Assembly: GCA_027923505.1 (NCBI GenBank)
Contig: BROI01000001.1
Location: 2,350,001-2,414,000, forward strand
DNA length: 64,000 nucleotides
Reading direction: 5' to 3'
Source of the DNA: Mayamaea pseudoterrestris
Taxonomy: Eukaryota > Bacillariophyta > Bacillariophyceae > Sellaphorales > Sellaphoraceae
The translations under genes were made by a program, and so were the position numbers. Position 1 is the first letter of the stretch, and every line of letters starts with the position of its first letter. Below are positions 3,001 through 63,357 of the stretch, one piece after another. The notes beneath the pieces were generated by a model. That model did not search any database, was not told the origin of the DNA, and saw only the letters and a list, made by a program, of their open reading frames with translations.

Positions 3001-6000
3001 AACTGAGCTGCTGACCTGAAGGCAAAAGGCAAGCAGGAGGCTGATGCGCAAAACAAATTCACCAAGGAGGTATGTCTTGTGCCCTCGGATCATGCACAGT
3101 GGCTGTACGCATAGAGTGTGTGGGCACTTCATGTTTGCCACTGCTAGGTTGGTGTTCGGCAGTTGGGTAGTACATACCAGCAACTTCTGCGGATCTGGAA
3201 GCAGGCAACATGCAGGAGGCAAATGCACAAAGTGAATGCACTATACAATATCCATTTGTGACCTTGGATCATGCCCCAAGCCAATTTACATAGAGATTGT
3301 GGGGATCTGATGTTTGCCACTGCTAGGGTAGGCAGTCACATAGTACCTGCTAACTGAAGCTGCTGACCTGAAGGCAAAAGGCAAGCAGGAGGCTGATGCG
3401 CAAAACAAATTCACCAAGGAGGTATGTCTTGTGCCCTCGGATCATGCACAGTGGCTGTACGCATAGAGTGTGTGGGCACTTCATGTTTGCCACTGCTAGG
3501 TTGGTGTTCGGCAGTTGGGTAGTACATACCAGCAACTTCTGCGGATCTAGAAGCAGGCAACATGCAGGAGGCAAATGCACAAAGTGAATGCACTATACAA
3601 TATCCATTTGTGACCTTGGATCATGCCCCAAGCCAATTTACAAAGAGATTGTGGGGATCTGATGTTTGCCACTGCTAGGGTAGGCAGTCACATAGTACCT
3701 GCTAACTGAAGCTGCTGACCTGAAGGCAAAAGGCAAGCAGGAGGCTGATGCGCAAAACAAATTCACCAAGGAGGTATGACTTGGGCCCTCGGATCATGCA
3801 CAGTGGCTGTACACATAGAGTGTGTGGGCACTTCATGTCTGCCACTGCTAGGTTGGTGTTCGGCAGTTGGGTAGTACATACCAGCAACTTCTGCGGATCT
3901 GGAAGCAGGCAACATGCAGGAGGCAAATGCACAAAGTGAATGCACTATACAATATCAATTTGTGACCTTGGATCATGCCCAAGCCAGTTTACAAAGAGAT
4001 TGTGGGGATCTGATGTTTGCCACTGCTAGGGTAGGCAGTCACGTAGTACCTGCTAACTGAAGCTGCTGACCTGAAGGCAAAAGGCAAGCAGGAGGCTGAT
4101 GCGCAAAACAAATTCACCAAGGAGGTATGTCTTGTGCCCTCGGATCATGCACAGTGGCTGTACGCATAGAGTGTGTGGGCACTTCATGTTTGCCACTGCT
4201 AGGTTGGTGTTCGGCAGTTGGGTAGTACATACCAGCAACTTCTGCGGATCTGGAAGCAGGCAACATGCAGGAGGCAAATGCACAAAGTGAACGCACTATA
4301 CAATATCCATTTGTGACCTTGGATCATGCCCCAAGCCAGTTTACAAAGAGATTGTTGGGATCTGATGTTTGCCGCTGCTAGGGTAGGCAGTCACATAGTA
4401 CCTGCTAACTGAAGCTGCTGACCTGAAGGCAAAAGGCAAGCAGGAGGCTAATGCGCAAAACAAATTCACCAAGGAGGTATGACTTGGGCCCTCGGATCAT
4501 GCACAGTGGCTGTACACATAGAGTGTGTGGGCACTTCATGTTTGCCACTGCTAGGTTGGTGTTTGGCAGTTGGGTAGTACATACCAGCAACTTCTGCGGA
4601 TCTGGAAGCAGGCAACATGCAGGAGGCAAATGCACAAAGTGAATGCACTATACAATATCCATTTGTGACCTTGGATCATGCCCAAGCCAGTTTACAAAGA
4701 GATTGTGGGGATCTGATGTTTGCCACTGCTAGGGTAGGCAGTCACATAGTACCTGCTAACTGAAGCTGCTGACCTGAAGGCAAAAGGCAAGCAGGAGGCT
4801 GATGCGCAAAACAAATTCACCAAGGAGGTATGTCTTGTGCCCTCGGATCATGCACAGTGGCTGTACGCATAGAGTGTGTGGGCACTTCATGTTTGCCACT
4901 GCTAGGTTGGTGTTCGGCAGTTGGGTAGTACATACCAGCAACTTCTGCGGATCTGGAAGCAGGCAACATGCAGGAGGCAAATGCACAAAGTGAACGCACT
5001 ATACAATATCCATATGTGACCTTGGATCATGCCCCAAGCCAGTTTACAAAGAGATTGTGGGGATCTGATGTTTGCCACTGCTAGGGTAGGCAGTCACATA
5101 GTACCTGCTAACTGAAGCTGCTGACCTGAAGGCAAAAGGCAAGCAGGAGGCTGATGCGCAAAACAAATTCACTAAGGAGGTATGTCTTGTGCCCTCGGAT
5201 CATGCACAGTGGCTGTACGCATAGAGTGTGTGGGCACTTCATGTTTGCCACTGCTAGGTTGGTGTTCGGCAGTTGGGTAGTACATACCAGCAACTTCTGC
5301 GGATCTGGAAGCAGGCAACATGCAGGAGGCAAATGCACAAAGTGAATGCACTATACAATATCCATTTGTGACCTTGGATCATGCCCCAAGCCAATTTACA
5401 TAGAGATTGTGGGGATCTGATGTTTGCCACTGCTAGGGTAGGCAGTCACATAGTACCTGCTAACTGAAGCTGCTGACCTGAAGGCAAAAGGCAGCAGGAG
5501 GCTGATGCGCAAAACAAATTCACCAAGGAGGTATGTCTTGTGCCCTCGGATCATGCACAGTGGCTGTACACATAGAGTGTGTGGGCACTTCATGTTTGCC
5601 ACTGCTAGGTTGGTGTTCGGCAGTTGGGTAGTACATACCAGCAACTTCTGCGGATCTGGAAGCAGGCAACATGCAGGAGGCAAATGCACAAAGTGAATGC
5701 ACTATACAATATCCATTTGTGACCTTGGATCATGCCCCAAGCCAATTTACATAGAGATTGTGGGGATCTGATGTTTGCCACTGCTAGGGTAGGCAGTCAC
5801 ATAGTACCTGCTAACTGAAGCTGCTGACCTGAAGGCAAAAGGCAAGCAGGAGGCTGATGCGCAAAACAAATTCACCAAGGAGGTATGTCTTGTGCCCTCG
5901 GATCATGCACAGTGGCTGTACACATAGAGTGTGTGGACACTTCATGTTTGCCACTGCTAGGTTGGTGTTCGGCAGTTGGGTAGTACATACCAGCAACTTC

Positions 6001-6990
6001 TGCGGATCTGGAAGCAGGCAACATGCAGGAGGCAAATGCACAAAGTGAATGCACTATACAATATCCATTTGTGACCTTGGATCATGCCCCAAGCCAGTTT
6101 ACAAAGAGATTGTGGGGATCTGATGTTTGCCACTGCTAGGGTAGGCAGTCACATAGTACCTGCTAACTGAAGCTGCTGACCTGAAGGCAAAAGGCAAGCA
6201 GGAGGCTGATGCGCAAAACAAATTCACCAAGGAGGTATGTCTTGTGCCCTCGGATCATGCACAGTGGCTGTACGCATAGAGTGTGTGGGCACTTCATGTT
6301 TGCCACTGCTAGGTTGGTGTTCGGCAGTTGGGTAGTACATACCAGCAACTTCTGCGGATCTGGAAGCAGGCAACATGCAGGAGGCAAATGCACAAAGTGA
6401 ATGCACTATACAATATCCATTAGTGACCTTGGATCATGCCCCAAGCCAATTTACATAGAGATTGTGGGGATCTGATGTTTGCCACTGCTAGGGTAGGCAG
6501 TCACATAGTACCTGCTAACTGAAGCTGCTGACCTGAAGGCAAAAGGCAAGCAGGAGGCTGATGCGCAAAACAAATTCACCAAGGAGGTATGACTTGGGCC
6601 CTCGGATCATGCACAGTGGCTGTACACATAGAGTGTGTGGGCACTTCATGTCTGCCACTGCTAGGTTGGTGTTTGGCAGTTGGGTAGTACATACCAGCAA
6701 CTTCTGCGGATCTGGAAGCAGGCAACATGCAGGAGGCAAATGCACAAAGTGAATGCACTATACAATATCCATTTGTGACCTTGGATCATGCCCCAAGCCA
6801 GTTTACAAAGAGATTGTGGGGATCTGATGTTTGCCGCTGCTAGGGTAGGCAGTCACATAGTACCTGCTAACTGAAGCTGCTAACCTGAAGGCAAAAGGCA
6901 AGCAGGAGGCTGATGCACAAAACAAATTCACCAAGGAGGTATGTCTTGTGCCCTCGGATCATGCACAGGTGGCTGTACTCATAGAGTGTG
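1..6990. repeat. Satellite A, 352-bp tandem array (about 20 copies)
   Basis: About twenty head-to-tail copies of a 351-352 bp unit, running off the left edge. Copies differ by scattered substitutions and rare small deletions; the copy at about 560-780 is short, by roughly 11 bp. The unit is a dimer: the block ATGTTTGCCACTGCTAGG occurs twice per unit, at 153, 326 and 505, spaced 173 then 179 bp, and other words (GGATCATGC, CAGGAGGC) recur in both halves. Two copy types can be told apart, one reading TATGTCTTGTGCC and one TATGACTTGGGCC, and they alternate between 3.4 and 5.0 kb. Open frames of 60-97 codons in every unit repeat with the satellite and change with single substitutions, so they are not taken as genes. 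Confidence 0.97.
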
Positions 6991-9900
6991 TGGATGCCAT
7001 GCCCTGAGAATCAGCACATTCAACAACTGGTTGAATGTGCCAGCCCTGCTCCTTTTGTGGCTGCAAGAATCATCAGGTTTCCTTGCTGAGCCCACCAAAA
7101 TATTTCAAATAGGTTTGTTGTCATGATGGGCCATAAGTTGGTCAATTGCACCTCAGTATCCATCACCGTGTATGCCATGGTGAGACTCAAACCGACCTTA
7201 CAACTTATTGGTTCTGCCAGTGGTGCACCTCAAGTGGCAAGTGAGACTTCCAAAATGGCCTGCAGACCCCATAATACACCAAACATGGACTGTAACAGTG
7301 AATGTGACTCATAGACTTGTTCTTTTAGGTGTGGAAGCCATCACTGTGCCCTGAGACTCCGCACATTCAACAACTGGTTGAATGTGCCAGCCCTGCTCCC
7401 TTTGTGGCTGCAGGGATCATCAGCATTGCATGCTGAGCCCTCCCAATCCCTTTCATATCATGTTTGTTGTCATGATGGGCCATAGTTGGTCAGTTGCACC
7501 TCAGTATTCATCACCATGTATGCCATGGTGAGACTGAACCAACCCCACAACTTGTTGGATCTGCCAGCGGTGCACCTCAAGTGGCAAGTGAGACTTCCAA
7601 AATGGCCTGCAGACCCCATAATGCAATGCACATGGACTGTAACAGTGAATGGGACTCATAGACTTGTCCATTGGGGTGTGGAAGCCATCACTATGCCCTG
7701 AGACTCCACACATTCAACAACTGGTTGAACGTGGCAGCCCTGCTCCTTTTGTGGCTGCAGGGATCATCAGCATTGCCTGCTGAGCCCTCCAATATATTAC
7801 AAATAGGTTGGTGGTCATGATGGGCCATAAGTTGGTCAGTTGCACCTCAGTATCCATCACCTTGTACGCCATGGTGAGACTGAGCAGATCCAACAACTTG
7901 TTGGATCTGCCAGCAGTGCACCTCAAGTGGCAAGTAAGACTTCCAAAATGGCCTCCAGACCCCATAATACAATAAACATAAATTTGAACAGTGATTGGGA
8001 CTCAAAGACTTGACCAATTGGGTGTGGAAGCCATCACTATGCCCTGAGACTCAGCACATTCAACAACTGGTTGAATGTGCCAGCCCTGCTCCTTTTGTGG
8101 CTGCAGGAATCATCAGCTTTCCTTGCTGAGCCCTCCAATATATTTCAAATAGGTTTGTGGTCATGATGGGCCATAAGTTGGTCAATTGCACCTCAGTATC
8201 CATCACTGTGTATGCCATATTGAGACTCAGCCGACCCCACAACTTATTGGTTCTGCCAGTGGTGCACCTCAAGTGGCAAGTGAGACTTCCAAAATGGCCT
8301 GCAGACCCCATAATACACCAAACATGGACTGCAACAGTGAATGTGACTCATAGACTTGTCCATTGGGGTGTGGAAGCCATCACTATGCCCTGAGACTCCG
8401 CACATTCAACAACTGGTTGAATGTGGCAGCCCTGCTCCTTTTGTGGCTGCAGGGATCATCAGCATTGCCTGCTGAGCCCTCCCAATCCCTTTCATATCAT
8501 GTTTGTTGTCATGATGGGCCATAGTTGGTCAGTTGCACCTCAGTATTCATCACCATGTATGCCATGGTGAGACTGGACCGACCTCACAACTTGTTGGATC
8601 TGCCAGCGGTGCACCTCAAGTGGCAAGTGAGACTTCCAAAATGGCCTGCAGACCCCATAATACAATAAACATAAATTTGAACAGTGATTGGGACTCAAAG
8701 ACTTGACCAATTGGGTGTGGAAGCCATCACTATGCCCTGAGACTCAGCACATTCAACAACTGGTTGAATGTGCCAGCCCTGCTCCCTTTGTGGCTGCAGG
8801 GATCATCAGCATTGCTTGCTGAGACCTGCAATATTTTTCATATTATGTTTGGTGTCAGGATGGGCCATGAGTTGGTCAGTTGCACCTCAGTATCCTTCAC
8901 CATGTTTGCCAGGGTGAGACTGAGCGTATCCAACAACTTGTTGAATCTGCCAGCAGTGCACCTCAAGTGGCAAGTGAGACTTCTAAAATGGTCTCCAGAC
9001 CCCATAATCCAACTAACATGAACTTTACCAGTAAATGGGACATATGGACTTGTTATTTTGGGTGTGGAAGCCATCACTATGCCCTGAGACTCCGCACATT
9101 CAACAACTGGTTGAATGTGCCAGTCATGCTCCCTTTGTGGCTGCAGGGATCATCAGCATTGCCTGCTGAGCCCTGCAATATCTTTCATATCATGTTTGTT
9201 GTCATGATGGGCCATAGTTGGTCAGTTGCACCTGAGTATCCATCACCATGTATGCCATGGTGAGATTGAGCCGAAAAAAACTTAATGGATCTGCCAGCGG
9301 TGCACCTCAAGTGGCAAGTGAGACTTCCAAAATGGCCTGCAGTCCCCAAAATACAACTAACATGGACTGTAACAAAAAATGAGACTCATAGACTTGTCCA
9401 AGTGGGTGTGAAAGCCATCACTATGCCCTGAGACTCCGCACATTCAACAACTGGTTGAATGTGCCAGCCGTGCTCCCTTTGTGGCTGCAGGGATCATCAG
9501 CATTGCCTGCTGAGCCCTCCATAATCTTTCATATCATGTTTGTTGTCATGGTGGGCCATGAGTTGGTCAGTTGCACCTCAGTATCCTTCACCGTGTATGC
9601 TATGGCGAGACTGAGCAGATCCAAGAACTTGTTGGATCTGCCAGCAGTGCACTTCAAGTGGCAAGTGAAACTTCCAAAATGGCCTGCAAACCCCATAATA
9701 CAATGCACATGGACTGTAACAGTGAATGGGACTCAAAGACTTGTCCATTGGGGTGTGGAAGCCATAACTTTGCCCTGAGACTCAGCACATTCAACAACTG
9801 GTTGAATGTGCCAGCCCTGCTCCCTTTGTGGCTGCAGGGATCATCAGTATTGCCTGCTGAGCCCTCCAATATATTTCATATTATGTTTGTTGTCATGATG

Positions 9901-34169: not shown

Positions 34170-37100
34170 TCACTCTATAAGTGTTACTCCCGGACATAGA
34201 GCAGCTATGATAGTTTTCTTCGCCAGCAGAGACGCGAAGAGCGCCCCAAGGACTTGCTGGTCGTCGCCACGAAAGTGGATTGACATACTAGGCGTGTTCT
34301 TTCCACTTTCATTCTCTATAAGGCATGCAAAAACGCGATTTCCTTGTAAAGTCATGAAAGCCCATAAGGCTGTAGCAAATCCTCCAGGTACGGCTTCTCC
34401 ATCCCACTTCAAGGCTGAAATACTGGCTAGCTTTTTGTCAGTGGTGGAACATGGCGTCACCTGGTTATCTGACGGAGCGACTTTTAGTTCCGCCACGCGA
34501 AAAGGCATACTGAACCAAAAGAAACGGAAAGTCGAAACATCACCCCAGAAATTAGTAAAGAAGACTAGGGGGCATGGCTGCATGCCAGTGAATGGTGACA
34601 AAGCTAGCGAATCTCCTTGTAGAACGGCATTCTCCGATTCACTTCCTTCAGCTGAATCATCGATCTTAGCCTTTATTTGGAAATCGTCTTCACCACTCTT
34701 ACTTTCCCCACCCGTGGCGGTGCTGGCATCTCCGTGGGCAGCCAGTCCTTCTCCGCTCCATTTAGCACCAATGTCATCGCGCTCGGCTGGAACATTTCGA
34801 TAAACGACAGATGGAACTAGAACACCAGCAATAATCGACAATGTCGGGCTGATCGATACCTCATACAGCAACTGTTCACCAGAACGAATTTCTTGCTTAT
34901 ACACAGCCGAGCAGGAGACAAGCGGTATTGCTTCAAAAGTTTTGTCTGGACATCCACCTAAGAGTGCATCGGCGTCGTCGACACATGTAGATGATATCGT
35001 GAGACCACCATCATGTCGTAACACGCCAAGTTCCAATTTCATTCCTTCAGAAAGCTCCGCAGGAACTGTGTTGAAAGCTTTCATTAAAACAGTTACACGA
35101 AATTCTTCTTCGCCGTCGCAACGGAGATATCGTCTGGAAGTGTATGCGGCAATCAAAGCAACTGCGTCGGACGCGGCCGAACATTGCGCGACAGATGACT
35201 CCCATGATGCCAATGGAGCGCCTAATACTCCTTGCATGCGTCCGTCTTTAGAACTAAACTGCGTTGGAATATTCAGTCGAAGCCAAGGGGACGGACGCGA
35301 TGGTGTTAAACCCGAATCGACGGACGAGGATGACGCCAAAATGCATTGTTGGGTCCGCACAGCGATGGTTTGTCGGATCAGTTGCGTCAAATGGCCGCTA
35401 ACAATCTTTTCGCCATCAATGGCAACAGCTTTGGCGTTTGAAACAAGAGGTTTTATCTTAGGTTTGACCGGCAGCTTGATGAGCTCTGAACTTGGAAAGG
35501 GTACAGTGAGATCGACCCTCCCTTCGTTTTGGTACTCTGAATGAATGCGAGCTACCGCAGCGTCACAGACAGGTCCCACAATAGAAATTATTGAATCGTC
35601 CACTGGTGTTTCGTCTACCTTTCCTTGCAGCAGCGCAACGGCAAATGTGACGAGAACTTTGGTTTCCTGGCTTGAACCAAAGCGTCGTCGCCACGAGCAC
35701 GCTACCAATGCGATGTTTTCGATGACAGCCACAGACGCACGCAAAGCTTCCTTCGCTAGCGTCTTCACTGGGTCTCTTCTCTTTTTGCCTTCGCTATCTA
35801 TTACTGGTGGATTGTGACCTTCCAATATTTTAGAGAGTAATCGCTTGGGACCTATAGCGACCGCAATGGCTCGCGCAGTATTCACTCGCAACGACAGAGG
35901 CGATCCCCTATCCAGATGCTGTCGAATCGACATCATTCGGCTTTCAACCCAAGCATCAGCCGCCAAAGTCAGTAAATACATCCGCAAGTGGTGCGACGCA
36001 AGACCTTGTTTCGTTTCGTATGCGGCAAACTCGTCCATAATTGTCAATGCGCTGTCGGCCTCATCCACGTCAACTGCGCCGAACCTTGAGTGGAACGCAG
36101 CAGACTCCAAAAGTGGATCCCAAAGCAAATGTGGCAGACATGCATTCGATGCTAATTTGACTGCGACAGAAGCGTCGACATTAATTAATCCAGCCGTATG
36201 TAGGTATAACTGAACGAGACGGGCGTATGCCGCCCCGCCTGCCGTGAGGAGCGACAAGTTTTCCTCCAGATAAAGCGCATTATTGCCCAATATGACGCAT
36301 GAGCGGAACGTCAGCAGAACAGTCCTCGCAAGTCTCAACCAGTTTGTCACTATGGCTGACTCCGCGTCGAAAATTATTGGTGAATTATCAAAATTGAATT
36401 GAAATCGTCGTCCTGTTTCGACCGCCACAGACGAAAAGACCAAGAGCAGCTCGTCAAACAACGATATGACCGTTGACTGCTTCCGTTCATTGATGATTGC
36501 TGTGAACGATGAGGTCGAAAAGAATATTTCCAGCGCGATATGGCGTTCCATATTTGTTTCTATTGGTCCATCCATGAAGAAGCTCAAGGCAATTTCTGCC
36601 AGCAACCCAGTCTTCGCTGGGCGGCGATAGCTCTTGTAGCCTTGCAGCTCCGTCAACACACCTGGCGAGCAAACTCCAAACGGCGCTTGCGTTGTCGATG
36701 GTAGCATTGCAACCAAATTGGTGACAAATATCAAATGCTTCGTGCGCTCCATGAGCGGAATCCCTCGCGCTGCCACAATAAGCAAAGCTAGCAAGCCAAT
36801 CGTTTGCTCCGTGCACAAGGGCACTGCCAGCTCCTGCCGCAACACTTGAACTGCCGTTTGACAAACGTCCTGAACCCATAGTTGGTTGGGACAAACGTGC
36901 GCCAATCGCAACGCCGCCTGACATGCAGCAAGTAATCCGTGCAGACTCGTTGCTTGCATGGCTGGAAGCAGCATGCTTCGAACAACCACATCCACCAATC
37001 CAATTGCATCTACTTCTGTCCATCGCTTGGCAAAAGCCGTTCGATCCATAGTAGACAATAGACTAGGCGTTGTCTTGACGTGATGAACCAAGCAGGCAGT

Positions 37101-37931
37101 CAAGGTTGGCAACGCAGCGCTTGTTAGTTGCGTCGACTTGTACATGGAAATTCGCTCAACGCTTTGAATCAATCGTGGCGCCATTATATTGTCCAAAATG
37201 CGCGTCGAAAGTTCCATTTGCGGAATGGCCGGATCTTCGTCGACAATGTTGCGGAGGCTGGGTGCATAGGGAGACGGTTTACAAAACCCAATGGATAGCA
37301 CTTCGCGTTGTAATTCATCGTCCACTAAGCTACCAGCCGTGGCTGCGTTTGACAGAACCATGATTCCAATCGCCTCCATGGCGCTTGCCGAAACACCATC
37401 GTCAGAGTCATCCAAAACTGCAGCCACCAAACAAGAGGGCACTTCAGCTCCAATTTCATCCTCGAGCTCCCCAAGGCGAGTGTCTCTGGATGAGAATAGC
37501 AACGGCGACGGTCTAATTTTCGCGTACGCAGACCTTGCTAGAATAGCTAGTGTTTTACATGCTAGAATGCGACATCGCCGATCTTTATGCTGCTGACTGC
37601 ACAGCATGAGTGCCTGGAAATATGATCGTACATTTTCGACGTAAGTGGCTTCATGAAAAAGAAACGACGAGGCCACGGAAGCGGAGTCTTGTACAACTGC
37701 CGACGAGTTACAACCTGCGAATTGCGTGAGTTGCAAACAAGCCTTGGCGACGCTGATGTAATTAGAATGTTCGTCTTTGAAAACGTGCAGCGTTGAGGTT
37801 GGATCAGATGACCCAAGCGGAGGAAACATTAAAGCTACAGCAGCAGTATCTTCGCCGATTTTTTTGGATGTTGCTGGCGATAGCGCTCCTTCTTGCTTGG
37901 TATTGAACGAAGCTGATGATGGAGTGCTCAT
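34170..37931 (-). CDS. Large adaptin-like protein, probably TPLATE-related (TSET/TPLATE complex)
   Basis: A single exon of 1,253 residues. The start is taken at MSTPSSASF; the frame stays open upstream only because it runs into a 42-bp minisatellite. The N-terminal two-thirds is helical, with HEAT/adaptin-like texture (for example RILACKTLAILARSAYAKI, AIGIMVLSNAA), and the last 350 residues look like a beta-rich appendage. Near the end, PLVFFTNFWGDVSTFRFFWF and GGFATALWAFMTLQGNRVFA resemble the terminal part of plant TPLATE (PVEFFRLW and GGFVGMMIFG regions). TPLATE is a large subunit of an ancient adaptor-like complex acting in endocytosis at the plasma membrane. The match is made by eye and is tentative; another HEAT-repeat trafficking protein is possible. 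There is a Gly/Asp/Ser-rich disordered insert at about residues 1,070-1,120. Confidence 0.5.
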   Translation of the reverse strand: MSTPSSASFNTKQEGALSPATSKKIGEDTAAVALMFPPLGSSDPTSTLHVFKDEHSNYISVAKACLQLTQFAGCNSSAVVQDSASVASSFLFHEATYVENVRSYFQALMLCSQQHKDRRCRILACKTLAILARSAYAKIRPSPLLFSSRDTRLGELEDEIGAEVPSCLVAAVLDDSDDGVSASAMEAIGIMVLSNAATAGSLVDDELQREVLSIGFCKPSPYAPSLRNIVDEDPAIPQMELSTRILDNIMAPRLIQSVERISMYKSTQLTSAALPTLTACLVHHVKTTPSLLSTMDRTAFAKRWTEVDAIGLVDVVVRSMLLPAMQATSLHGLLAACQAALRLAHVCPNQLWVQDVCQTAVQVLRQELAVPLCTEQTIGLLALLIVAARGIPLMERTKHLIFVTNLVAMLPSTTQAPFGVCSPGVLTELQGYKSYRRPAKTGLLAEIALSFFMDGPIETNMERHIALEIFFSTSSFTAIINERKQSTVISLFDELLLVFSSVAVETGRRFQFNFDNSPIIFDAESAIVTNWLRLARTVLLTFRSCVILGNNALYLEENLSLLTAGGAAYARLVQLYLHTAGLINVDASVAVKLASNACLPHLLWDPLLESAAFHSRFGAVDVDEADSALTIMDEFAAYETKQGLASHHLRMYLLTLAADAWVESRMMSIRQHLDRGSPLSLRVNTARAIAVAIGPKRLLSKILEGHNPPVIDSEGKKRRDPVKTLAKEALRASVAVIENIALVACSWRRRFGSSQETKVLVTFAVALLQGKVDETPVDDSIISIVGPVCDAAVARIHSEYQNEGRVDLTVPFPSSELIKLPVKPKIKPLVSNAKAVAIDGEKIVSGHLTQLIRQTIAVRTQQCILASSSSVDSGLTPSRPSPWLRLNIPTQFSSKDGRMQGVLGAPLASWESSVAQCSAASDAVALIAAYTSRRYLRCDGEEEFRVTVLMKAFNTVPAELSEGMKLELGVLRHDGGLTISSTCVDDADALLGGCPDKTFEAIPLVSCSAVYKQEIRSGEQLLYEVSISPTLSIIAGVLVPSVVYRNVPAERDDIGAKWSGEGLAAHGDASTATGGESKSGEDDFQIKAKIDDSAEGSESENAVLQGDSLALSPFTGMQPCPLVFFTNFWGDVSTFRFFWFSMPFRVAELKVAPSDNQVTPCSTTDKKLASISALKWDGEAVPGGFATALWAFMTLQGNRVFACLIENESGKNTPSMSIHFRGDDQQVLGALFASLLAKKTIIAALCPGVTLIE

Positions 37932-38026
37932 GGTGAAATGAAACGAAACGATTATTATGTATGTTGTTATGATCTTGTGCTGCCAATTCAGACTGCAGAT
38001 TTTCAATGTCGGTGAGGTTAAAAGAG

Positions 38027-38363
38027 TTTTCACTGGCACTCGTTTCATACTATTGCCTCATGACGCAGTTTTCACTGGCACTCGTTTCACAATATAGCCT
38101 TATGACGCAGTTTTCACTGGCACTCGTTTCGTACTATTGCCTTATGACGCACTTTTCACTGGCACTCATTTCAACAGAATAATTGGCTGACGCAGTTTTC
38201 ACTGGCACTCGTTTCATACTATTGCCTTATGACGTAGTTTTCCCTGGCAGTCGTTTCACAATATGGCCTCATGACGCAGTTTTCACTGGCACTCGTTTTA
38301 CAATATAGCCCATTGACGCAGTTTTCACTGGCACTCGTTTCATATTATTGCCTTCTGACGAAG
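38027..38363 (+). repeat. 42-bp minisatellite, 8 copies, in a divergent promoter
   Basis: Eight tandem units of 42 bp (one of about 44), each with TTTTCACTGGCACTCGTTTC, a variable AT-rich middle and TGACGCAG at the end. It lies between the start of the TPLATE-like gene (minus) and gamma-tubulin (plus), filling most of the 501-bp gap. The TGACGCA/TGACGTA words resemble half-sites of bZIP (CRE-type) factors; that reading is inference. The same unit, inverted, recurs at 61,126-61,507. Confidence 0.97.
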
Positions 38364-38432
38364 TGAACAGGTGGCCGCGCCGTCCACCATGGCGTTACTT
38401 TGCGTTGCTGGAGTGATTTTGCATCATCAACC

Positions 38433-39905
38433 ATGCCGCGAGAAATCATTACACTCCAAGTCGGTCAATGCGGTAACCAGATAGGCGGAGAATTTTGGAA
38501 ACAACTCTGCCTCGAGCATGGCATCCAAGACGACGGGTCGTTAGTGGACCTTCCAAACAATGCAACAAGTGACGACCGCAAGGACGTTTTCTTTTATCAG
38601 TCAGATGACGACAAGTACATTCCTCGAGCACTCTTGATTGACCTGGAGCCCCGTATTGTTCACCGTCTTGCGTTTGCGCACAAGCTTTACAATACGGAGA
38701 ACATGTTTGTCGCCAGTGACGGAGGCGGCGCTGGAAACAATTGGGCCAGTGGCTTTCGACAAGGACAAGAGTACCAGGAGCAAGTCTTGGATATGATTGA
38801 TCGAGAGAGCGACAATAGCGACTCATTGGAGGGGTTTGTCTTGACTCATAGTATTGCTGGCGGAACGGGTTCTGGCATGGGCTCATTTTTACTGGAAGCA
38901 ATTAACGATCACTATCCGAGAAAGATTATTACAACCTACAGCGTCTTTCCGAGTTGGGAGGATCAGTCGGACGTTGTTGTTCAGCCATACAACAGTTTGC
39001 TGACTCTTAAGCGTCTGACTCTTAATGCGGATGCAGTCGTTGTCTTGGACAATACTGCGCTCAATCGCATTGCCACGGAACGACTTCGCATTGAGAACCC
39101 ATCCGTCGACCATTTGAACAGTCTGGTCGCAACTATCATGGCTGCCAGTACCACGACGCTCCGATATCCTGGATATACAAATAATGATATGATTGGTTTA
39201 CTGGCCAGTCTCATTCCCACACCACGATGCCACTTTCTCATTGCCGGATACACACCATTAACATCACCTGACGCTACTGCTGAAGCCACACAAGGAATTC
39301 GAAAAACAACTGTTTTGGACGTTATGCGACGACTCACCAACAACAAGTCTGTCATGGTCTCAGCCGATACGGCAGCTGGCTGCTACATTTCCTTACTCAA
39401 CATTATTCAAGGCAACGACATTGACCCTCGTGACATTCACAAGGCGCTTCAACGCATTCGGGAACGCAATGCACTTTCCTTTATTCCATGGGGACCGGCC
39501 AGTGTGCAAGTAGCGCTGGCCAAGCGATCACCTTTTGTGCAGTCGCGACACAAGGTGTCGGGCTTCATGCTGGCGAATCATACCAACATTGCAGAGCTTT
39601 TTGATCGCGTGTTGAACCAGTATGATAGGATTCGATCGCGAAATGCGTTTCTAGACAATTATCGACGCGAACCAATGTTTGCCGACTCATTGGATGAGTT
39701 TGACACATCACGCGAAGTCGTTCAGAACCTTGTGGATGAGTATCGAGCTTGCGAACGAGCCGATTATGTCGACTTTGGCTGCACTACGACTGCAGGTAAT
39801 GCCTCGTCGTCAACCATGGCAAGCCAATCCAGTGCAGCAGCACCAAGCAAGGGTTCAACAACTGGGGCAAATAGCACAAAGAGTCAGCGAGTGACAAGAA
39901 CGTAA
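38433..39905 (+). CDS. TUBG1: Gamma-tubulin
   Basis: Single exon, 490 residues, a little longer than the typical ~450-475 because of a Ser/Thr-rich tail. The start is at [18 protein letters not shown], the conserved tubulin N-terminus; 11 codons upstream in frame are not conserved. The GTP-binding glycine loop GGTGSG is at residues 143-148. The words [17 protein letters not shown] and [24 protein letters not shown], with NNDMIGLL, are gamma-type rather than alpha or beta. It nucleates microtubules at centrosome-like or spindle-pole organisers within gamma-tubulin complexes. It is transcribed away from the 42-bp minisatellite and converges on the next gene with 99 bp between them. Confidence 0.97.
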
Positions 39906-59908: not shown

Positions 59909-60748
59909 TCAGCTGCTCAGATCCATAGTCTGCCTTTGCTTAAATTGCCCGAACTTCAAAAGGCGGCTCATCAAAAAGGGATTACTGCTGGAAGCCGGAG
60001 ACGGATAACCATTATGTTCAGTGAGGGATGGAGCAAAAAGCATTGTAGCGAAAAAGTCGCGCGCTTCTGCTATTGGAACAATGGCAGTCACATCGTCTTG
60101 CACCAAGTGAATGCAAATGCTTGCTCGAGTGGAATCCATGCAATCAAAAAAGCTAAAGATCTCGTCGCCTTCAAGCCAAAGAATTGCGTCCGCTCCGCTG
60201 TTTGTCAGCTTAAACCAGGGTGAATCATGGTCTGACCTGTCATCGTCAACCATAATAGTCCATGCTTCGGCTGGAAGGGGTTGATCATTCAATGAGGAAC
60301 GGAAGACTTGGGCGCTTGCACAGTCATGCTCATCGTCGTCGACTTCATCCCATCCTCCAATACCCAAGCTCGAGACGCAAATGGAATCATCTGACGCCCA
60401 TGTCTTATTAGAAGCAATTCGCTCTAGTTGGCACTTCTTGAGGAACGAGGCTCGTGTTTGATGATAAGTCTTTCGTTGATGCAACGGATGATCAACGGGT
60501 CTCGTGAATCGGAGTGAAGTATGATAAGCGTGAAGCCCACCTTGCCGTACACTGGCTAAAGGTACGCCCCTCTGATGAAATTCCTTGTTGATTATGGGTG
60601 TACAATCTACTTCCTCTCGCGTTGTAGCCGCGCGATCAACAATGCCCATGTTCCAATCAAAGCCAAAGCTCAGCAAGTGAGGGAGCATTGGGGGTAGATG
60701 ATCCTCCACGACAAATATGGATGTATTGGAGCTACTCGCTGCTGTCAT
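59909..60748 (-). CDS. Uncharacterised 279-residue protein
   Basis: Single exon from the first in-frame ATG (MTAASSSNTSIFVVEDH). The frame has no close family that I know. It is acidic, with an Asp-rich stretch in the middle (GGWDEVDDDEHDC), and its second half reads like a small folded domain: EAWTIMVDDDRSDHDSPWFK, DAILWLEGDEIFSFFDC, ICIHLVQDDVTAIVPI. The closing residues are basic and polar. Upstream on the same strand (61,084-60,794) is another open stretch that could be a first exon, but no convincing splice pair with normal intron length joins it. Confidence 0.55.
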   Translation of the reverse strand: MTAASSSNTSIFVVEDHLPPMLPHLLSFGFDWNMGIVDRAATTREEVDCTPIINKEFHQRGVPLASVRQGGLHAYHTSLRFTRPVDHPLHQRKTYHQTRASFLKKCQLERIASNKTWASDDSICVSSLGIGGWDEVDDDEHDCASAQVFRSSLNDQPLPAEAWTIMVDDDRSDHDSPWFKLTNSGADAILWLEGDEIFSFFDCMDSTRASICIHLVQDDVTAIVPIAEARDFFATMLFAPSLTEHNGYPSPASSSNPFLMSRLLKFGQFKQRQTMDLSS

Positions 60749-61612
60749 CGGACGGTAAAGGCTGGATGAGAGCACACACCTGAGTTTCCGATTCTAGACG
60801 GGGACCATCGAGTTCAAATCAGACTGAGGCAGCAGCCATCGGTCGAGGGGCGCATCGTTCGCTGTATACTCCTCACACTCGGAGTTTCGACCGAATGCCA
60901 TCGAGGTCAAGATTTCTTCGCTGTGACAATTTAAGGAAATGTGTGACAAATAATGAGTCATTGACAGAAATAGCAGTACGCACGACAACTCGGTGTTCGT
61001 TTGATTCGTGAAACTGATGCTCGTGTGACCGCGTCGGCCAGTTAATAACGCTAGCCATGCGGGACCACCATGGAAGTTGGCCAAACTGGAGGAACGTCAA
61101 TGATGTACTCGTTTGATTTCCAGTGCCTCAGGCAATAGTACGAAACGAGTGCCAGTGAAAACTGCGTCATGAGGCAATACTTCGAAACAAGTGCCAGTGT
61201 CACTTACGTCACAAGGCAATAGTATGAAACGAGTGCCAGTGAAAACTGCGTCAAAGGGCAATAGTATGAAACGAGTGCCAGTGAAAACTGCGTCAGCCAA
61301 ATTGTGGGTGATATGAGTGCCAGTGAAAAGTGCGTCACGAGGCAATAGCACGAAACGAGTGCCAGTGAAAAGTGCGTCCCGAGGCAATAGCACGAAACGA
61401 GTGCCAGTGAAAACTGCGTCACAAGGCAATAGTAAGAAACGAGTGCCCGTGAAAAGTGCGTCATCAGGCAATAGTATGAAACGAGTACCAGTGAAAACTT
61501 CGTCATGATGGAGCGTTGTTAGAAGATTCGCTTTCCGCCTGGTTCAGCAGCCAAAACAATCGTTTATTGTAGTAAATGAGATTCTATCTATCTATTATTC
61601 GCGCATGGTACA
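60749..61612. other. Divergent intergenic region with a minisatellite
   Basis: 864 bp between the minus-strand 279-residue gene and the plus-strand kinase. The right half is the 42-bp minisatellite. The left half has a minus-strand open stretch at 60,794-61,084 without a good ATG start. Confidence 0.5.
61126..61507 (-). repeat. 42-bp minisatellite, 9 copies, inverted relative to the one at 38 kb
   Basis: Nine tandem units of 42 bp. On the plus strand each reads GAAACGAGTGCCAGTGAAAA, then CTGCGTCA and an AGGCAATAGTA-like spacer. This is the reverse complement of the 38,027-38,363 unit, including the same AT-rich spacer words. One unit, at about 61,290-61,325, has the alternative spacer GCCAAATTGTGGGTGAT; the 38-kb array also has one unit with a matching alternative spacer (about 38,167-38,190). 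The array ends 105 bp before the kinase ATG. Confidence 0.97.
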
Positions 61613-63357
61613 ATGGCAACAAATAAAAGCAATGCTGTGATTAAAGGAATGCTTGTTTGCCACGATCGACGCTCACAACACCCTCATCCGACGGCGACAC
61701 ACAACCAAGACCGCATTGACGACGACCGAAAGCAAACATCCAACGACCAAAAGGAAGCTTCCAACTTACTTCGACAGGCACCACAATTGCTCAAGCAAGT
61801 GGAGGATAGCTTTTTGGTGAAGCATCATCGGCGAAGCTACCCCACATTTCGTGCTTCTGAGGTAACGGTTGGTCCCTTGCTTGGAGTTGGTGGATTTGGC
61901 GTCGTGTTTGAAGTCGAGAATCTCACTCTCCGACTATTGGTAGATACAGACGATGATAAAGGTAGCAAGGCAATAAAAAGGAACGAGAAGCTACAAGAGC
62001 AGCCCACGGAGCTTCCCAATTCATTTTCTGAGTCGCTTGCAAGAATCGTCACCGACACGGACAAATCTGCACATCAAAATAAAACTTCGGACGTATCCTT
62101 CCTCACACCAATTGAACAATTGAATGACTTTCATGACGACAAGGCAAGCGTTGACAAGGACGATTCGCATTATGAGGTACATAGTGCTCGTCGACACATG
62201 GTACAATTTGTGAGACGCAATGGCGAAGCTCGATACGCCATTAAGCGCTTACACAAGGACCTTCCTGAACTAGCAAGGGTAAGGGGAATGATTGATCTAG
62301 CGATGGAAGCGACCTTTCTTTCGGGTCTCTGGCATCCGAATATTAGTGAGTGCATTGCGATACAATTGGGATCTGCGAGTTAGTGCGCAAGACCTGGCAT
62401 GGATCCACCTCTCTCAACTTGTTCTTCAATTGTCTTGAAAAATCTCCAGTCAAGATGAGAGCCGTGGCCGAAGGAGACTTGCTTCAAAGGCACTTTTTTC
62501 TTATTATGGACCGTCTCTACGACACACTTGACGTTCGAATTAAGCAGTGGAAGGTCCGATACTCGCGAAACAAAGGTAATCTTTTTGGATTTGGCGCCAA
62601 CAAGGAGCAACTCTACCAACTCACTGTAGAAAGACTCACCGTCGCATACGATTTGGCGGCTGCCTTGACATACATGCATGCCAATCAGCTCGTATATCGA
62701 GATTTGAAGCAACAAAACATCGGCTTTGACATTGTAAGTTGACCGACTAAACATTTTTATCCATTTCGTTTCTCTCATAAATAAAGTGAGCCTATTTTGC
62801 AGCGCGGAGATGTGAAAATATTTGATTTTGGGCTGTCGAAATCTATCAGTGACGACTTGAAAGCGAAGGACAAGGCAGGGAACCCAAATTACGGCTATAA
62901 TTTGACTCCTCGCACTGGCAGTATCCCTTACATGTCCCCCGAAATTGTTGAACGCAAACCGTACGACGAAAAATGCGACGTCTTTTCGTTTGCAATACTA
63001 TTTTGGGAGATGCTTGCGCTCAGGCACGCATTCCGAGGCTACACTCGAGGTGATTTTCTGACGCAAGTAGTCCGGCAACACGAGCGACCTCGTATTGGCC
63101 GACACTGGCCAATTTGCGCGCCCATCGTTCTAAGCGAGGCATGGCACAATGATCCCCGAAAGCGCCCTCCGATGAAGCGAGTTGCGACGCTGATTCGCGG
63201 AGACCTTAATGAGCTGAGCCACGACAATTCCGTGACGGATCGATCCGTGCACATGCGGAACCGTTCAGCGCACAGTGCACACCTTAGATTGCTTCTTGAT
63301 CAGGATAGTTTGGACGAAAATGATGATACAGTAGTAGGAACAATAGGGAAAGCTTGA
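61613..63357 (+). CDS. Serine/threonine protein kinase, diatom-type family (3 exons)
   Basis: Exons are 61,613-62,345, 62,450-62,733 and 62,803-63,357. The introns are 104 and 69 bp (GTGAGT..CTCCAG and GTAAGT..TTGCAG), and splicing gives a continuous 523-residue protein. The Gly loop GVGGFGVV is at 91-98, the ATP lysine in YAIKRL is K211, and the helix-C Glu is probably E232. The catalytic loop YRDLKQQN has D329 and N334, DFG has D347, and MSPE stands in for APE. About 110 residues of polar insert separate the Gly loop from K211. Tyr replaces the His of HRD. HPNIIKMRAVAEGD..FFLIMDRLYDTL and NIGFD..RGDVKIFDFGL are the wording of a large diatom kinase family. All catalytic residues are present, so it should be active; the substrate is unknown. 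Confidence 0.9.

Follow-up and report, generated by a model that had tools for sequence, protein, structure and literature searches.

Arrays of a 42-bp repeat in the diatom Mayamaea pseudoterrestris point to a possible common gene switch or to DNA spreading into promoters

Why does one 42-bp tandem repeat occur twice, on opposite strands and close to start codons, within a single stretch of a diatom genome? The window analysed here, 64,000 nucleotides of Mayamaea pseudoterrestris contig 1 (positions 2,350,001-2,414,000), carries two such arrays, for which a first-pass annotation had proposed either a bZIP-type control element or a promoter-targeting mobile minisatellite. Searching the assembly (30.6 Mb in 41 contigs) for the consensus and classifying the gaps that arrays occupy, as that annotation had suggested, places both in a genome-wide family found in excess in divergent gaps. 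We favour, at a probability of about 0.55, the reading that the arrays are a dispersed cis-regulatory module of bidirectional promoters, made of repeated putative binding sites. The scale of the family, its common ends, its frequent sizes of 4 and 8-9 units and its uneven spread along contigs lay beyond the view of the first-pass annotation.

Two arrays and the genes beside them

TRF reports a period of 42 bp at 38,025-38,364 (8.1 copies) and again at 61,130-61,505 (9.0 copies), and unit parsing agrees with it and with the original description: eight units on the plus strand and nine on the minus strand, sharing one 42-bp consensus. The arrays and adjoining genes are as follows.

34,170-37,931, minus strand: divergent partner of array 1, without Pfam match; start taken at 37,931, 95 bp left of the array
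38,027-38,363, plus strand: array 1, eight units of 42 or 43 bp; no TGACG ahead of the first unit, TGACGAAG after the last
38,153-38,195, plus strand: odd fourth unit of array 1, 43 bp, spacer AACAGAATAATTGGC
38,433-39,905, plus strand: gamma-tubulin gene, start codon 70 bp right of array 1; translation matches Pfam Tubulin (1.1e-57) and PDB gamma-tubulin (1.2e-200)
59,909-60,775, minus strand: divergent partner of array 2, without Pfam match; long frame starts at 60,775, nearer ATGs give short frames
61,130-61,505, minus strand: array 2, nine units of 42 bp; first unit preceded by ATGACGAAG on the high-coordinate side, last unit followed by no TGACG
61,613-63,357, plus strand: protein kinase gene, frames 61,613-62,383 and 62,797-63,357; starts 107 bp from array 2; second frame matches PK_Tyr_Ser-Thr (1e-15)

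The odd units noted earlier for their rare spacer are real: one is the fourth of the eight in array 1 (43 bp), the other, with a different spacer, the fifth of the nine in array 2 (42 bp). The claim that both arrays lie between divergent genes near a start codon holds for array 1, with ATGs 95 bp and 70 bp away, and for the kinase side of array 2 (107 bp, where 105 had been given), but is less certain for the other side of array 2, where the nearest minus-strand ATGs give short frames. The start of the left-hand gene at 37,931 is itself a choice, because its longest minus-strand frame remains open upstream as far as 38,048, inside array 1. The two kinase frames are probably exons of one gene. 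Upstream, a frame of 31 codons whose start context is good (38,389-38,484) overlaps the gamma-tubulin start in another frame. The window contains no Rfam match at the gathering threshold.

A genome-wide family and its position relative to genes

Genome-wide, the 20-mer TTTTCACTGGCACTCGTTTC with up to two mismatches has 473 + 564 matches, and a degenerate core 16-mer has 996 (455 + 541) with no mismatch; the reversed-pattern control gave 0 for both. Contigs 1 and 2, covered completely, hold 38 + 58 = 96 core matches in 7 + 12 = 19 arrays, each with at least two core matches and none single, from which a genome total of about 200 arrays would be extrapolated. A solo unit with decayed neighbours lies on contig 3 (626,748; locus L025). 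Exact relatives were found neither in viral_contigs (two patterns) nor in genome_contigs (one pattern; records near this genome may be absent there), and no description of a repeat of this type in diatom promoters was found in the literature as covered by titles and abstract openings, with subscription journals mostly outside reach.

The spread is uneven. All 38 core matches on contig 1 lie beyond 2.248 Mb, with none in the first 2.25 Mb, and all 58 on contig 2 lie beyond 1.022 Mb, with none in the first 1.02 Mb. Arrays also cluster: among the 66 in the matches listed, 21 neighbours are less than 30 kb apart against 8.9 expected, a number reached in 0 of 5,000 random sets (eight contigs, 13.3 Mb, contig 7 left out; some neighbours are duplicates). 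Where contig 1 is empty, two samples of 8 kb, both without an array, are similar in base composition, with GC contents of 0.491 and 0.482 compared with 0.486. Other tandem repeats occur in the same material. A tandem satellite whose units measure about 347-352 bp makes up most of some 25 kb of the window (1-24,978), next to the gene region; a different repeat with a period of about 180 bp spans about 5,843-9,001 of locus L016, with a related copy at about 8,477-8,643 of L027; and L018 (1-739) and L020 (13-1,509) share a sequence that repeats internally about every 169 bp and is mostly 80-88% identical.

Placement relative to genes was scored in the window from 25 to 64 kb and in loci L009-L028, where 22 of 24 arrays could be placed, with genes called by a hexamer score that was trained on long frames and misses short exons. 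The placed arrays occupy 14 divergent, 8 tandem and 0 convergent gaps, whereas the 81 other gaps of the same regions comprise 17 divergent, 34 tandem and 30 convergent ones (Fisher p = 1.2e-4); normalised for length, the divergent excess has p = 0.0017 and the convergent deficit p = 0.007. Requiring frames of at least 100 aa instead of 60 leaves 21 array gaps, of which 15 are divergent, 5 tandem and 1, in L009, convergent. The original judgement that the arrays are placed non-randomly with respect to promoters thus carries beyond the window, and an even spread through genes and intergenic DNA was not seen. A position between head-to-head genes holds for 14 of the 22 placed arrays, not for every one. 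Among the tandem gaps, some of 1-4 kb may contain an undetected gene, but in those of L009, L012 and L014 the core points against the detected genes.

Start codons give a similar picture on a wider sample. Read away from the array, ACCATG occurs 25 times in sense and once in antisense on the core-downstream side (53 flanks), and 29 times against 2 on the other side (54 flanks), and this sense bias is weaker or absent in looser contexts (the two sides in turn: [AG]CCATG 38:15 and 41:16; CCATG 44:36 and 45:31; [AG]NNATGG 52:59 and 55:68). Within 320 bp, ACCATG stands on both sides of 14 of 53 arrays, on one side of 18 and on neither side of 21. A one-directional element of single-gene promoters, as first drawn from the right flanks, was dropped because ACCATG is as common on one side of the array as on the other. 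Divergent gaps with an array measure 304-1,348 bp (14 gaps), against a median of 357 bp without one (17 gaps); because array gaps are longer, the array looks added to an ordinary-sized gap rather than replacing it. Arrays are missing from 17 of the 31 divergent gaps in the sampled regions, though these regions were chosen for arrays, and the divergent gaps that have no array show no enrichment of TGACGYA (1 in 4,556 bp). The word TACTATT, tried as a general promoter word, seemed enriched in divergent gaps but was dropped on the counts of TACTATTGCC given below.

Flanking genes were extracted as 54 segments, 30 of which were scanned with Pfam (19 from the core-downstream side, 11 from the other). 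They include gamma-tubulin, SNF7, BCAS2, a PWI-domain helicase, sterol reductase, ribulose-phosphate epimerase, PPIP5K, LETM1, TELO2 and ATG13; 8 of the 30 have no Pfam match at 0.01. Among the scanned segments neither a common pathway was apparent nor a single functional class of neighbour genes, a candidate explanation that was therefore set aside. The assembly has 53 light-harvesting matches and 10 silicon-transporter matches, six of them strong and three of these six in one open frame of 1,445 aa (contig 1: 2,970,661-2,974,680), which resembles the concatenated silicon-transporter (SIT) genes reported, in the text available of that source, for the pennate diatom genus Synedra (PMC6114903).

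The repeat unit, array ends and array history

Units were analysed in 54 arrays from the window and from loci of the best DNA matches and pattern matches, a non-random sample that favours the first contigs; L001 and L003-L006 were excluded as repeats of other loci, and L035 as a light-harvesting gene. The consensus of 272 internal units is TRTGACGYARTTKWCACTGGCACTCGTTTCRTACTATTGCCTT, in which TGACG is followed by C in 46% and by T in 51% of units, and the units thus contain the TGACGT and TGACGC words of the CCRE/bZIP11 element. TGACG lies on one strand only of the consensus unit. Two loci have arrays on both strands, L028 (about 4,382-4,745) and L038, in each case with two arrays on opposite strands within one gap. 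Linked sub-types recur among 374 units: 126 are like TGACGTAATTGACAC, 123 like TGACGCAGTTTTCAC and 63 like TGACGTAGTTTTCAC. In the 21 arrays of 8 or 9 units, 27 of the 63 units at the ends (the first two and the last) are of the TTGACAC type, compared with 15 of 114 in the middle, and one array of 24 units, with candidate start codons on both sides, consists entirely of this sub-type (L053, contig 9: 37,780-38,780).

Spacing is nearly constant: in the 54 arrays the core-to-core distance is 42 bp in 267 of 328 steps, 43 bp in 40 and 41 bp in 7, and some odd values come from weak anchors. Irregular steps of 48, 55, 57, 65 and 78 bp exceed 42 by amounts that are not whole helical turns. Unit numbers, counted from anchors with at least 14 of 18 matches, favour certain sizes: 4 units in 11 arrays, 5 in 7, 6 in 3, 7 in 6, 8 in 12 and 9 in 10, with 1, 3, 10, 11 and 24 units in one array each; the peak at 8-9 is partly selected, because the 337-bp query favours long arrays. 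One irregular step occurs in 13 of 29 arrays of at least seven units, and in 10 of these 13, against 1.9 expected, it follows unit 4 (L040 and L053 left out; L011 counts only with weak anchors dropped, otherwise 9 of 12). A recent block duplication does not explain this 4+4 layout, because units four apart are no more alike (0.811) than those three (0.820) or five apart (0.819).

Conservation within the unit is unequal. Among 169 units, chosen by good neighbours on both sides rather than by their own core (L040 and L053 left out; one unit scored low through a one-base shift), the deviation per base is 4% in TGACG, 2% in TTxxCACTGGCA, 6% in CTCGTTTC and 14% in the spacer TACTATTGCC, and the data reject a uniform rate (chi2 516, df 34, excluding two-state positions). 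Such a pattern would be expected of repeated binding sites and also of a spreading machinery that needs the core. Outside units, TACTATTGCC with at most one mismatch occurs at 9 noncoding places near arrays, at 5 far from them and at 7 in coding sequence.

Arrays end sharply, the match to the consensus dropping to 0.32 before and 0.31 after them against 0.29 by chance. In 51 arrays (L025, L040 and one too near a locus end left out), TGACG stands at the start in 40, one mismatch allowed, and an exact TGACG follows the last unit in 26; it is present at both ends in 20 and at neither in 5, and so at one or both ends in 46. The window arrays have it at one end each, array 1 at its end and array 2 at its start. 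TGACG at both ends could be either unit sequence or an insertion target.

An all-against-all BLAST of the loci with arrays masked found no homology between array flanks, bar one paralogous pair. It returned four related pairs: L033/L040, in which array and flanks are duplicated together, two that reflect other tandem repeats, and L051/L057. The last pair shares an element with inverted end repeats, 26 bp of which are identical between the loci, that abuts the array end in L051 (from 1,118) and lies without an array in L057 (about 6,024-7,841). A transposon, MITE or Helitron carrying the arrays was rejected: beyond the one paralogous pair the flanks have no common terminal or internal sequence, and the unit match is near chance outside arrays. 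Mean unit identity is 0.806 between arrays, 0.831 within them and 0.855 between neighbours, a gradient that suggests weak local homogenisation in an old, dispersed family. The duplicates L033 and L040 both have a nine-unit array, and outside it 15 of 16 windows of 100 bases reach 92% identity or more and one has 84%, while across it the windows are 100, 80, 88 and 94% identical and the unit sub-types differ, their number being equal. This moderate contrast, from one paralogous pair, points to unit exchange with other arrays and proves nothing.

A regulatory module, its rivals and known systems

On the favoured reading, the 42-bp unit would combine a TGACGY site, a strictly conserved core CACTGGCACTCGTTTC and the looser spacer. 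A bZIP-type dimer would occupy TGACGY and a second factor the core, at regular spacing, and the bound factors would keep the head-to-head gap open and drive or tune both genes; a bZIP protein is one plausible candidate, because binding to TGACGT or TGACGC is reported for bZIP11 and aureochromes of diatoms. What we observe is the dispersal, the unequal conservation inside the unit, the nearly constant spacing and the divergent bias; what we infer is that proteins bind, which factors these are and that transcription is affected. Of the two proposals in the first-pass annotation, the bZIP-type words fare partly well: TGACGC/T is a conserved part of the unit, often stands at array ends and matches the targets reported, in the text available, for Phaeodactylum bZIP11 (TGACGT/C) and for aureochromes (TGACGT; PMC11142338, PMC7378808, PMC4721966), but TGACGYA shows no enrichment in divergent gaps that lack an array, and conservation is strongest in CACTGGCA, which had not been singled out. 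The mobile minisatellite likewise gains from the dispersal to unrelated flanks and the unit changes between paralogous promoters, but a transposon shell was not found. Several observations speak against a regulatory module: the longer gaps with arrays, the convergent gap at the stricter threshold, the lack of TGACGYA enrichment, the weaker or absent sense bias of looser start contexts, ACCATG on both sides in only 14 of 53 arrays, the single TGACG end of each window array, neighbour genes without a common pathway, the large empty parts of contigs 1 and 2, and odd steps that are not helical turns.

The main and serious rival is a selfish mobile minisatellite, in which unit blocks, such as circles that have been excised, insert at TGACG sites in open promoter chromatin, the core is kept for the spreading machinery and effects on the host are incidental. 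Flanks without homology bar one pair, clustering along contigs, the length that arrays add to the gap, unit changes between paralogs and the 24-unit array all fit it, as does TGACG at both ends in 20 of 51 arrays, which is expected of a unit circle recombining at TGACG. Yet TGACG is missing from one or both ends in 31 of 51 arrays, divergent gaps free of arrays rarely contain TGACGYA, there is no solo unit among the 19 arrays of contigs 1 and 2, and this one genome yielded no machinery, target-site duplication or empty site; we consider this reading possible, though on balance unlikely. It and the regulatory module are not mutually exclusive. A further reading would be a promoter cassette that spreads itself, in which unit blocks copy into TGACG sites of head-to-head promoters, exchange units and settle at 4 or 4+4, wiring roughly a couple of hundred unrelated genes in chromosome domains to one protein set. 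If true, and we hold it to be doubtful, a regulon would have been built by a mobile array without a transposon shell.

Position between divergent genes, with many constrained sites in one orientation, could also mark an insulator or boundary by which two head-to-head genes stay independent of each other, like arrays of a CTCF-like protein. That is improbable given that 8 of 22 arrays lie in gaps scored tandem, although several are long and may hide a gene, and that 17 of 31 divergent gaps have no array, although the regions were chosen for arrays. Finally, the confinement of core matches to the parts of contigs 1 and 2 beyond 2.248 and 1.022 Mb, and the 25 kb of satellite with units near 350 bp in the window, would suit a chromosome-domain element (a replication origin, pairing or centromere-flanking site) that sits in nucleosome-poor promoters by chance, but the sense bias of ACCATG on both array sides makes this the explanation to which we give least credence.

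Our results suggest that the arrays either act as a common gene switch or are DNA spreading into promoters. If functional, one sequence family in this compact algal genome would tie together perhaps 200 promoters whose genes are unrelated, and its natural copy numbers, 1 to 24 units among the arrays read, would show how repeated sites set promoter output; if selfish, the element would land largely in divergent promoters, its spread following chromosome domains.

Among known systems, HF2, an archaeal virus, offers one comparison. This halovirus likewise has a dispersed intergenic repeat that was tested as a promoter, but its repeats, as described in the accessible text, measure 58 or 29 bp (PMC8707807). 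The aureochrome site is, like the word in the unit, a TGACGT bZIP target in a diatom, but it is one site in a cyclin promoter, and the available description of it has no 42-bp unit (PMC4721966). Another comparison is with CCRE1-3 and PtbZIP11 of Phaeodactylum, where TGACGT and TGACGC are repeated in diatom proximal promoters; according to the parts of these reports at hand, those elements respond to CO2/cAMP at CO2-regulated genes and lie on both strands in PtCA1, PtCA2 and PtBST1 and on one strand in PtBST2-4 (PMC7378808, PMC11142338). The arrays here, in contrast, carry the words on one strand, inside a 42-bp unit and beside genes of mixed function. In behaviour, the nearest known system is, by analogy, the human MSR1 minisatellite, which has a unit of about 37 bp, is concentrated on chromosome 19 and occurs at PRPF31, whose promoter is bidirectional. 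Both are one repeat family at many loci, clustered by region and in part near promoters (here 996 core matches, and 21 close neighbours against 8.9). MSR1 differs in that it also occurs in introns, whereas none of the placed arrays here lay in a convergent gap at the first threshold; some of its many loci adjoin core promoters and, as far as the source is accessible, its copy number at PRPF31 changes expression (PMC4725990). In the arrays described here, by contrast, the match breaks off abruptly at unit borders, many arrays have 4 or 8-9 units and the unit is 42 bp.
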